NCBI GenBank assembly: GCA_947581855.1
Contig: CANPVZ010000002.1
Span: 186,001 to 250,000, forward strand
Length of the DNA: 64,000 nucleotides
Direction: 5' to 3'
From: an uncultured Phocaeicola sp.
Lineage (GTDB): Bacteria; Bacteroidota; Bacteroidia; Bacteroidales; Bacteroidaceae
In this document: positions 1,613 through 4,033 of the stretch, piece by piece
Position numbering within the stretch: the first letter of the stretch is position 1
Layout of the letters: each line of letters starts with the position of its first letter
Notes under the pieces: model-generated
The model's database searches: none
What the model was told of the DNA's origin: nothing
What the model saw: the letters and a program-made list of their open reading frames with translations, nothing else
Translations under genes and position numbers: made by a program

Positions 1613-2560
1613 ATGAAGAAAATAGCCAAACAACTGACCGATTTGATAGGGAATACTCCTTTATTGGAACTGTCTCATTATAACAGAAAACATGGGTTGA
1701 AAGCAACCATACTGGCTAAACTTGAATTGTTTAATCCGGCGGGAAGTGTCAAAGACCGTATTGCTTTGGCCATGATCGAAGATGCCGAACAGAAAGGATT
1801 GCTGCAACCGGGAAGTACCATTATTGAACCTACGAGCGGCAATACCGGTATCGGACTGGCTTTTGTTTCTACCGTAAAAGGATACAAACTGATATTGACC
1901 ATGCCTGATACTATGAGTTTAGAACGGCGCAACCTTTTGAAAGCATTAGGTGCGAGAATTGTTCTGACTCCGGGTGTAAAAGGCATGCAAGGCGCTATAG
2001 ACCGCGCTTACGAGCTGAAAGAAGAGATTGCAGGTTCTGTGTTGTTACAACAATTCGAAAATCCGGCCAATCCACGTATACATCGCCTGACTACGGGAGA
2101 AGAAATATGGCGCGATACAGACGGACAAGTGGACATTTTCTGCGCAGGAATCGGTACGGGCGGCACAATTTCGGGGGTAGGCGAAGCCTTGAAGGCTCAT
2201 CGGCCCGACATACAGATTGTAGGTATCGAACCGGAAAGTTCGGCCGTAATCTCAGGTAAAGAAGCGGGTCCGCATATGATACAGGGTATTGGTGCCGGTT
2301 TCATTCCTAAAATTTATAATGCCCAAGTAGTAGATAGAATCATTCCCGTAAGCAACAACGATGCGATTCGTTCCTCACGAGAAGTTGCCGCCGAAGAAGG
2401 ATTGCTGGTAGGCATTTCATCGGGCGCAGCATTATACGCCGCCACCCAGTTAGCCATGCAACCTGAGAACGAAGGGAAAACCATTGTCGCATTGCTGCCC
2501 GATACGGGTGAAAGATATTTATCAACGTCCTTGTATGCTTTCGAAGAGTATCCACTTTAA
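1613..2560 (+). CDS. cysK: Cysteine synthase A (O-acetylserine sulfhydrylase)
   Basis: A PLP-dependent enzyme making L-cysteine from O-acetylserine and sulfide in the cytoplasm. The ATG at 1613 gives 315 residues, the usual CysK length. The open frame extends 33 bases further upstream, but that would place the start on the -7 promoter box, so the downstream ATG is chosen. The PLP lysine is K47 in NPAGSVKDR, the substrate loop PTSGNTG is at about residues 73-79, the phosphate-binding GTGGTISG loop is near residue 180, and GISSGAA is near the C-terminus. It stands alone behind its own promoter. CysK and CysM are hard to separate by eye; length and motifs favour CysK. Confidence 0.95.
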   Translation: MKKIAKQLTDLIGNTPLLELSHYNRKHGLKATILAKLELFNPAGSVKDRIALAMIEDAEQKGLLQPGSTIIEPTSGNTGIGLAFVSTVKGYKLILTMPDTMSLERRNLLKALGARIVLTPGVKGMQGAIDRAYELKEEIAGSVLLQQFENPANPRIHRLTTGEEIWRDTDGQVDIFCAGIGTGGTISGVGEALKAHRPDIQIVGIEPESSAVISGKEAGPHMIQGIGAGFIPKIYNAQVVDRIIPVSNNDAIRSSREVAAEEGLLVGISSGAALYAATQLAMQPENEGKTIVALLPDTGERYLSTSLYAFEEYPL

Positions 2561-2650
2561 TCGAATACTTTTGGGAAAAGGATTTATGCGTTAGGGAAAT
2601 ATTCGATAAATAAAGTTCCATCATATCCTGTAAGAATTCCTTACATTATT

Positions 2651-2757
2651 TTTTTGTGCACAAACGCAAGGTACGAATGTGCACAAATCGCCTCCTCATT
2701 TGTGCACAAACGAGACTCTTCATTGTGCACAAATAACCTTTGCGTTTGTGCACAATT
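2651..2757. repeat. Five palindromic TGTGCACAA units at exact 23-bp spacing
   Basis: The 6-bp palindrome GTGCAC begins at 2656, 2679, 2702, 2725 and 2748, always 23 bases apart. Around it a near-perfect TTTGTGCACAAA palindrome is kept, while the 13-base intervals between the TGTGCACAAA cores differ completely. The array is noncoding (23 is not a multiple of 3) and sits in the 358-base gap between cysK and the DUF4250 gene. It could be a cooperative protein-binding array or a family of short interspersed repeats. No function can be assigned. Confidence 0.85.
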
Positions 2758-2918
2758 CTGGAACGCCGGCCAGCAAAGGGTTTCAGAAGGAGTTTTTACG
2801 TTAAACGGCAAAACCGAAGCAGTAAAATAACTTTATATAACTACGTACAGGGGGGGGGTGACTATATGCCGAGTTGTTTCCGTTATCTTAGGAGTGCCTT
2901 TCTATCCGGCTTTCACTA
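2758..2918. other. Rest of the cysK-DUF4250 gap, with a G9 homopolymer
   Basis: Beyond the palindrome array this gap has no credible gene. It contains a run of nine G at 2850-2858, unusual in this AT-rich background, just after the sequence CTACGTACA. A 97-codon open frame across it has no start context or family resemblance. No terminator hairpin was recognised. Confidence 0.5.
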
Positions 2919-3098
2919 TTACCAAAACTTATTATTTTCCCGGCTGTATACAAATCCGGCAGCTTTCAGTTTACTGACTAACGCCTGCTCATCCACATGC
3001 AAGTCTTCACAAAGTTCTTCTAACGAGGTATAACAATCGCGCAGTTTCATATTCACTACGCTGAATAACATTATCGGGTCTTCAGGTAATTCCATCAT
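2919..3098 (-). CDS. DUF4250 domain micro-protein, 59 aa
   Basis: A small gene read on the minus strand from the ATG at 3098 to TAA at 2919. The protein starts MMELPEDPIMLFSVVNMKLR and continues with DCYTSLEELCEDLHVDEQ, ending in NNKFW. The LPxDPxMLxSxVNxKLRDxY signature, the following Leu/Cys-rich helices and the closing Asn-x-Phe are typical of DUF4250, a family of roughly 55-60 residues. The pattern resembles a small winged-helix or HTH fold, but its role is not known. A second in-frame ATG at 3095 is also possible. No signal peptide or membrane segment is present, so it is probably cytoplasmic. The two flanking regulators are not obviously cotranscribed with it. Confidence 0.85.
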   Translation of the reverse strand: MMELPEDPIMLFSVVNMKLRDCYTSLEELCEDLHVDEQALVSKLKAAGFVYSRENNKFW

Positions 3099-3388: not shown

Positions 3389-4033
3389 TTAAATGTAATA
3401 CTCCGCCATGTTCACAATGCCGGCGTGCATAGCGTATTTGGTTGCTTCATGCACATTGTTCACCCGCAATTTACGAAAGATATTTTTCCGGTGTGTCATA
3501 ACCGTATGGACACTGAGAAAACGTTCGGCAGCAATTTCCTTAGTTGTCTTTCCCATCGCTATGGCTTTGAGTATTTCTTTCTCCGTAGCCGTCAAATACT
3601 TTCTTTCAGTGCAAAAAAGTGGTTGAGGCTGCATTAACCGGACAATGCGTTGACACACATAACGCTCAGCTCTTAAACCACAATGTATCGATTCCTCCAC
3701 TTCCGAAAGCGGACAATCTTTCATCACCATGCCTATACGAGTGCTTTCCACCCATATTTTATAAATAAAATCTTCACTGAATGTATGACTGAACAGAATC
3801 CATTGTGTTTCGGAAAAACGTTGTTCCAAAATAAGTAACTCATCCGCAGAAGTCAAATCGAACAAGGTGTAGTCTAATATAACCAATGAAAAAGGACAGC
3901 ATAACAAAACTTTTACCAATTCCTCCTTACGGCATACTATTTGAATGTCGCCAATACCACTACATACGGAACTAAGTTGTTTCAGTCCATATCGGGTTAT
4001 CTCCTGATTGTCAGCCAGCACTAAGTTTCTCAT
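3389..4033 (-). CDS. LuxR/NarL-type response regulator
   Basis: A 214-residue DNA-binding response regulator. The N-terminal receiver has D8 in LVLADNQ, the phospho-acceptor D54 in VILDYTLFD and a lysine at K105 (VMKDC), so it could be phosphorylated. The C-terminal LuxR helix-turn-helix covers about residues 146-205 (LTATEKEILKAIAMGKTTKE onward, with LSVHTVMTHRKNIFRKL as recognition region). No partner kinase is adjacent. It is divergent from holB, with 198 bases between them. The receiver is rich in Cys and deviates from consensus (ADNQ instead of ADDH), so its input signal is open. Family call is secure; target genes unknown. Confidence 0.88.
   Translation of the reverse strand: MRNLVLADNQEITRYGLKQLSSVCSGIGDIQIVCRKEELVKVLLCCPFSLVILDYTLFDLTSADELLILEQRFSETQWILFSHTFSEDFIYKIWVESTRIGMVMKDCPLSEVEESIHCGLRAERYVCQRIVRLMQPQPLFCTERKYLTATEKEILKAIAMGKTTKEIAAERFLSVHTVMTHRKNIFRKLRVNNVHEATKYAMHAGIVNMAEYYI

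Follow-up and report, generated by a model that had tools for sequence, protein, structure and literature searches.

Composites of palindromic units, dispersed through genomes and often located at the 3' ends of genes, are known as BIME or REP elements, with RAYT/Y1 transposases linked to the REP units. CRISPR arrays have repeats of about 23–50 bp, separated by unique spacers of similar size. In the Bacteroidales, the BrickBuilt MITE of Porphyromonas gingivalis is described as having 19 intergenic copies in strain ATCC 33277 and as being made up of 1 to 22.8 tandem units of 23 nt, with a leader, a tail and an IS5-like terminal inverted repeat (TIR), GAGACCTTTGCA (PMC4596501). The BOX element of Streptococcus pneumoniae is, according to its published account, also modular, dispersed and intergenic, with a repeated inner module, a predicted stem-loop and boxA/boxC ends that carry a TIR resembling that of an IS; the background section of the same paper names the BIME/REP palindromic units (PMC3049150). 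Template switching between short inverted repeats is described as homogenising the arms, and it can invert the spacer between them (PMC8604942); loop inversions in RNA genes have been attributed to the same process, bacterial examples being given in a figure legend (PMC8794818). The "minute inversions" described in plastomes are likewise a precedent for loop inversion.

Structure of the array

The window, by which we mean the whole stretch of 64,000 nucleotides analysed (an uncultured Phocaeicola sp., assembly GCA_947581855.1, contig CANPVZ010000002.1, positions 186,001 to 250,000), contains five GTGCAC cores starting at 2656, 2679, 2702, 2725 and 2748, exactly 23 bp apart. All five positions and the period had been given in the initial annotation and are confirmed. 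The number of GTGCAC sites in the window is ordinary (nine, against a shuffle mean of 6.48); their periodicity is not. When nine sites were placed randomly in 200,000 trials, three equally spaced sites 6–60 bp apart arose at a rate of 1e-5. The array starts 96 bp downstream of the cysK stop codon (at 2560), and among ORFs of at least 60 amino acids it is overlapped only by an implausible one of 97 amino acids with a TTG start, in agreement with its annotation as non-coding and downstream of cysK. To the right of the array, on the opposite strand, lies a 214-amino acid ORF (3389–4033), which by eye looks like a LuxR-type regulator.

From left to right on the forward strand, the element begins with an A/T-rich motif (2632–2646), recognised by column conservation over 18 copies. 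The window copy is a poor match to its family consensus, AAATATnTTTACAT. A T-rich run continues to 2655. The box TTTGTGCACAAA is its own reverse complement, and neighbouring boxes are inverted-repeat arms with a loop of about 11 bp between them. The palindromes, placed by their core positions, occupy 2653–2664 (core 2656–2661), 2676–2687 (core 2679–2684), 2699–2710 (core 2702–2707, the centre of the array), 2722–2733 (core 2725–2730) and 2745–2756 (core 2748–2753). Between the cores are spacers S1 (2662–2678), S2 (2685–2701, from the comparison of copies), S3 (2708–2724) and S4 (2731–2747). In the window S1 and S4 have a common inverted end, CGCAA..TTGCG, and in nearly all copies the CGCAA end of S1 and the TTGCG end of S4 are on the outside. 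Palindrome 1 and the start of S1 make up the left outer arm TTTGTGCACAAACGCAA (2653–2669), which in the predicted fold pairs with the right outer arm (2740–2756, reverse strand), found in an arm search as an inverted left arm with one mismatch to TTTGTGCACAAACGCAA. By sequence and in the predicted fold, the outer arms TTTGTGCACAAACGCAA..TTGCGTTTGTGCACAA are the base of one long hairpin.

The array is adjoined by a conserved hairpin, CTGGAACGCC..GGGTTTCAG (2758–2786), with 91.1% of cells paired over the 18 copies and covariation not above that of shuffles. This is followed by a variable stretch (2787–2822), the length of which is constant in the ungapped family alignment, and by a right A/T-rich motif (2823–2838, from column conservation; family consensus rAAAAATnTnnACA). 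Just to the right of the element there is an intergenic run of nine G residues (2850–2858), a possible slippage site.

Copies in the genome

A search of the whole genome that contains the window (G000; 3.62 Mb in 39 contigs, 88% complete) with the pattern TGTGCACA-N13..17-TGTGCACA gave 59 matches per strand, and the reversed-pattern control gave none. Among the forward-strand matches listed (50 of the 59), all are 31 nt long, which corresponds to a 23-bp period. Eighteen recognisable copies were assembled, 16 with five palindromes, one with four (L014) and one with three (L047); the assembly tracked boxes in 23-bp steps, and the unbiased evidence for the period is the free-gap two-box search. 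A search with the arm TTTGTGCACAAACGCAA, allowing up to three mismatches, returned the same places and scattered single sites.

The element is intergenic and about 205 bp long. Aligned without gaps, its copies consist of the left motif AAATATnTTTACAT and T-rich run, the 23-bp array, the hairpin AATTCTGAAACGCC...CAGCAAAGGGTTTCAGAgGGG, a variable stretch of about 35 bases whose length is constant, and the weak right A/T-rich motif. Conservation stops at both A/T-rich motifs, with none clear beyond them, and the flanks of the copies are unrelated. Of the 87 boxes, 82 have an exact GTGCAC core. In the 16 five-box copies, every position of the outer half-spacers CGCAA..TTGCG reaches a conservation of at least 0.94. 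All ORFs overlapping copies are of 113 amino acids or fewer. The window array is one copy of a dispersed non-coding repeat, not a lone regulatory array.

A nineteenth place (L089, G000:C2:37.8 kb) is decayed; at about 938–985 it has ATGCACAAACG and GTACACAAACG, which resemble boxes and are spaced by 23 bp. In two copies, L009 and L012, a four-box array is preceded by one more outer unit, whose box is weak, which looks like a gain of units or a rebuilt left end; both stay in the counts of five-box copies.

Apparent reversal of spacers

The 13-bp spacers had been annotated as unrelated and free. This does not hold: in addition to the inverted ends of S1 and S4, spacers are common to copies, some of them apparently inverted in place. 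All four window spacers have relatives at other copies, those of S3 in reverse orientation. Among the 69 spacers of the 18 copies, 118 between-copy pairs share at least 11 of 13 positions, either in direct orientation or as reverse complements, and the conserved outer ends account for many of these. Reversal was scored in the 16 five-box copies (120 pairs per index) as a same-index reverse-complement match at seven or more of the central nine bases. There are five such pairs for S2 (column-shuffle mean 0.28) and seven for S3 (mean 0.70), in both cases with 0 of 1000 shuffles as high, and none among the 120 pairs of S1 or the 120 of S4. The reverse-only and complement-only controls gave one and zero pairs for S2, and zero and zero for S3. 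These counts are inflated by kinship: four of the five S2 pairs are a single orientation difference involving the near-duplicates L042 and L043 (identical at 96 of 98 positions), and one of the copies in the fifth is L012, which is probably out of register by one unit. Six of the seven S3 pairs rest on three differences, while L034/L050 is a near-palindromic spacer without reversal. The copies suggest at least four separate single-spacer reversals, one in S2 and three in S3.

When S3 alone is reversed, whole-array identity between the window copy and L034 (G000:C7:67.6 kb) rises from 86 to 91 of 98; the centre of the window S3 is nearly self-complementary, matching at 7/9 directly and at 8/9 in reverse. 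The same operation on L087 and L088 raises identity from 83 to 88 of 98, and reversal of S2 alone raises that of L035 and L042 from 76 to 81 of 98. For L031 and L043, reversing the whole array gives 88 of 98 instead of 73. The L031 array matches the near-duplicates L042 and L043 best when wholly inverted with its flanks fixed, and the best whole-inverted score, 36 for L031/L043, compares with a maximum of 34 in 500 column-shuffled sets. For the one other candidate whole-array reversal, of L032 with L028, L034 and L050, the score of 32 is inside the null (maximum 34).

The reversals would be past events, deduced from copies at different loci rather than observed as flipping, and the reversed spacers could instead stem from recombination between copies. 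With four reversals, finding none in S1 and S4 is only about a 1-in-16 outcome. The outer spacers may perhaps lack reversed pairs through retention of a closed outer stem, whether to help the element spread or to make it tolerated at the ends of transcripts; such a constraint is uncertain, because four reversals are too few.

Proposed template switching between the arms

We lean, with modest confidence, towards a MITE-like or BIME-like dispersed hairpin repeat, the palindromes of which are inverted-repeat arms, with template switching keeping the boxes alike and flipping the spacers. We infer the enzymology of arm exchange as follows: template switching during replication, or resolution of a hairpin, would copy one arm onto another, which would preserve both the likeness of the boxes and their 23-bp spacing; the enclosed segment would be turned around during the exchange. 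The products would be inner spacers turned singly at an unchanged index, and the L031 array, turned as a whole relative to L042 and L043. Constant boxes, a constant period and reversed loops would all come from one process, since each box serves the boxes next to it as an arm.

The published template-switch inversions (PMC8604942, PMC8794818) resemble this arrangement in their reversed loops and homogenised arms, but as described they are isolated hairpins, whereas the window element is a regular array of self-complementary arms, which would allow both single-unit and whole-array reversal. Reverse-complemented loops between conserved arms were found here in paralogous copies and at one locus of a sister species.

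Related genomes

Two-box matches are present in six of 101 genomes, namely G000 and five others of the same genus (G001, G004, G011, G012 and G014). These five carry a different element, which has mostly 22-bp spacing (22–23 bp) and flanks unlike those of the window element. The suggestion of a short-spacer repeat family with fixed phase is borne out by the 18 copies here, the 22–23 bp arrays in the five same-genus genomes and a unit number that varies between copies. The search for tandem arrays that had been proposed returned recurrence with conserved spacing in relatives, rather than a sequence confined to this locus with no conserved spacing.

In 201 genomes of the family, a 291-bp query from G004 matched G004, G011, G012 and G014, with partial right-end matches in G005, and the window element matched G000 and one degenerate copy at a contig end in G009. 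Both searches scored three to four candidates per genome, and that with the window element regained just eight matches in G000; its absence from other genomes is not firm. A variant box core in relatives was considered and rejected: TTGTnnACAA pairs 23 bp apart, with up to one mismatch, number 62 per strand in G000, none in G009 and at most four per strand in any other genome of the genus.

In G004, the central-loop pattern with up to three mismatches occurs at 35 places. At 34 of them the loop TTCTTCAGAC is the usual way round, although several of these have mismatches within the stem or loop or next to it. The other one (C42:14782–14807) is GAGT-GTCTGAAGAA-ACTC, an exact reversal of the loop with unchanged flanks; its much shorter stem counts against the template-switching reading. 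The 22-bp cousin in G004 (for example L098, L100 and L103) has at least 35 copies, with additional palindromes on its flanks, among them TGTATAATTATACA and TGCATAAATATGCA; reverse-complementing the last spacer in L100 gives the first spacer in L103.

A three-box scan of the genome_contigs collection gave 29 stretches, 14 of them in Bacteroidota-named records (a raw count, without background rate), and several of the stretches are plain tandem repeats of 21–23 bp. Other Bacteroidota-named records (L062, L066, L067, L071, L072, L073, L077 and L081) contain TGTGCACA repeats at 21–23 bp with unrelated spacers, often more uniform.

Gene context and mobility

According to rough ORF calls (at least 70 amino acids, greedy choice, two neighbours doubtful), six of the 18 copies lie between convergent, 11 between tandem and one between divergent genes. 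The tandem copies show no orientation bias (five in one orientation, six in the other), and at 17 of the 18 the 3' end of one or both neighbouring ORFs points at the copy. This context, mostly beside gene 3' ends, is ill-suited to promoter operators, although such raw counts, without a genome-wide rate, are suggestive only.

The context bears on the cooperative protein-binding array put forward in the initial annotation, in which a dimeric regulator or nucleoid organiser would bind each TGTGCACA box and the spacing would be selected. A core that is exact in 82 of 87 boxes, with a period of 23 in all 50 listed of the 59 pairs and varying spacers, would suit such a protein, as would the recurrence of the core at 22–23 bp in five same-genus genomes despite different flanks and the origin of 14 of the 29 genome_contigs stretches from Bacteroidota-named records (a raw count). 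We nevertheless regard it as improbable: the copies are mostly at gene 3' ends and not at divergent promoters, the element was seen in few species (G000 and one degenerate G009 copy in 201 genomes, with a low-sensitivity search), and homogenisation of arms by template switching would yield the constant pattern without a protein and without selection on phase. Nothing found requires protein binding.

As in a MITE, there are many dispersed copies with common boundaries and no coding capacity, and the family may have spread by transposition in trans. Terminal inverted repeats were not found in the 18-copy alignment, the A/T-rich motifs at the ends being in the same orientation and the inverted arms internal. 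The end motifs were rejected as target-site duplications, with 10.4 matches within copies against 10.7 between copies (the within-copy value was equalled or exceeded in 4188 of 5000 shuffles). No empty site was found; at the only syntenic site tried, that of the G009 cysK (77% identical), the next ORF is by eye a sulfhydrylase, and the two loci are not comparable. No match to PF01797 (Y1/RAYT) was found in G000, which is 88% complete; such a gene could lie in the missing part. The hairpin pattern with up to three mismatches gave 11 matches in 15 genomes of the genus, all of them known G000 copies and none a longer autonomous one; it misses seven of the 18 copies, and a diverged autonomous copy could escape it. 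Neither the 50,697 phage records nor the 72,556 plasmid records searched contain a match. The viral_contigs collection has no exact match to the arm pattern, and two stretches with a generic three-box array.

Folding of the element

The predicted RNA fold of window positions 2630–2810 has an energy of −69.6 kcal/mol (z −7.70 against 200 shuffles), and the array alone, folded as DNA, has a z of −7.55; this strong fold is largely accounted for by the palindromes themselves. A cloverleaf or inner-stem RNA was rejected, since complementarity within copies was not above shuffles for 28 half-spacer and six whole-spacer combinations (highest z 1.4). Across copies, the inner spacers show no complementary covariation. 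Complementarity of S2 with S3 is lower within copies than in shuffles (2000 of 2000 shuffles at least as complementary; in a second test, 121 of 5000 as low), and the half-spacer pairs a2xb2, a2xb3, b2xa3, b2xb3 and a4xb4 are also less complementary; these values come from many tests and no weight is placed on them. The right hairpin was rejected as a conserved RNA: 34 of 500 shuffles had as high a proportion of paired cells, and 152 of 500 reached its covariation score. Rfam 15 gave seven matches in window positions 2500–2950, none at gathering score.

If selection maintained the element as a bidirectional transcription terminator, or as a structure at mRNA 3' ends, this would suit the strong predicted hairpin, the conserved, 91.1% paired hairpin beside it and the 3' end of a neighbouring ORF that points at the copy in 17 of the 18. 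We think this unlikely. A terminator scan of 2400–3000 detected nothing at the array or hairpin, its sole site being at 2854–2881; the tandem copies show no orientation bias and the right hairpin no covariation above shuffles, while a single divergent copy in 18 is weak evidence without a genome-wide rate.

Alternative origins of the apparent reversals

In a compact micro-shufflon, spacers or the whole 98-bp array would turn at many sites, giving orientation states at each locus, a trans-acting factor would read TGTGCACA, and related species would have 22- and 23-bp versions; we consider this quite unlikely. Such orientation states would fall below the size detected by phase-variation surveys. 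That the elements are site-specific recombination arrays, with a recombinase acting on the symmetrical boxes and turning units around, is very unlikely: single-unit and whole-array reversals, as deduced above, and copies with fewer units in 23-bp steps (three boxes in L047, four in L014) would be in keeping with it, but sites 23 bp apart leave very little room for looping in cis, S1 and S4 have no reversed pairs, and the single loop reversal in G004 is bounded by GAGT..ACTC, not by a box. A neutral, decayed minisatellite inside a MITE, its spacers diverged by point mutation alone, is hardly credible despite the similar arrangement described for BrickBuilt (PMC4596501), given nearly perfect boxes (82 of 87), no change of spacer length among the pairs listed and reverse-orientation spacer matches above shuffles.

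Comparison with described elements

Like BrickBuilt, the template-switching element proposed here belongs to the Bacteroidales, has a similar number of intergenic copies (about 19 in BrickBuilt) and is built of 23-nt units that mix conserved and less conserved positions (PMC4596501). It has three to five boxes, flanked by an A/T-rich motif on one side and by a hairpin on the other; a leader, tail or TIR of the BrickBuilt type was not found in its flanks when these were compared by eye with Table 2 of that paper, a comparison confined to the flanks. GTGCAC is absent from the text of PMC4596501, in which the unit itself is given in a figure. BOX is similar in its modular, dispersed, intergenic organisation, with a repeated inner module and predicted stem-loop, and differs in its boxA/boxC ends with an IS-like TIR; the account consulted (PMC3049150) mentions no symmetrical boxes or reversed units. 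The context of our copies appears to resemble that of REP-like elements; the Y1 transposase (PF01797) of the REP/RAYT systems was not found in G000.

A CRISPR array was rejected: the box is a 12-bp palindrome, the short spacers are common to loci in both orientations, and there are three to five boxes at 18 places. The Bacteroidetes LexA motifs given in PMC8565304, GGA-N5-TCC and CTAA-N5-TTAG, bear no resemblance to the box. In the literature consulted, TGTGCACA was not found and no arrays of this kind were met.

The closest elements in kind are BrickBuilt, BOX and BIME, and ours is assigned to none of them. It is not filed as a MITE, as BrickBuilt or as a RAYT-linked REP because the tested features fail (TIR and target-site duplication; leader, tail and TIR; and Y1, respectively). 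Its workings are those of a dispersed hairpin repeat, a kind within which it is a variant that is itself new.

Implications

If the template-switching reading is right, the element is a natural case in which constant palindromes in fixed phase need not mean protein binding, and a caution for motif hunting. The replication machinery itself could then keep inverted-repeat arms alike while the loops between them turn. With 18 copies in this genome and at least 35 of the cousin in a sister genome, the family offers a replicated system in which the inversion of loops and the homogenisation of arms could be measured in bacteria.
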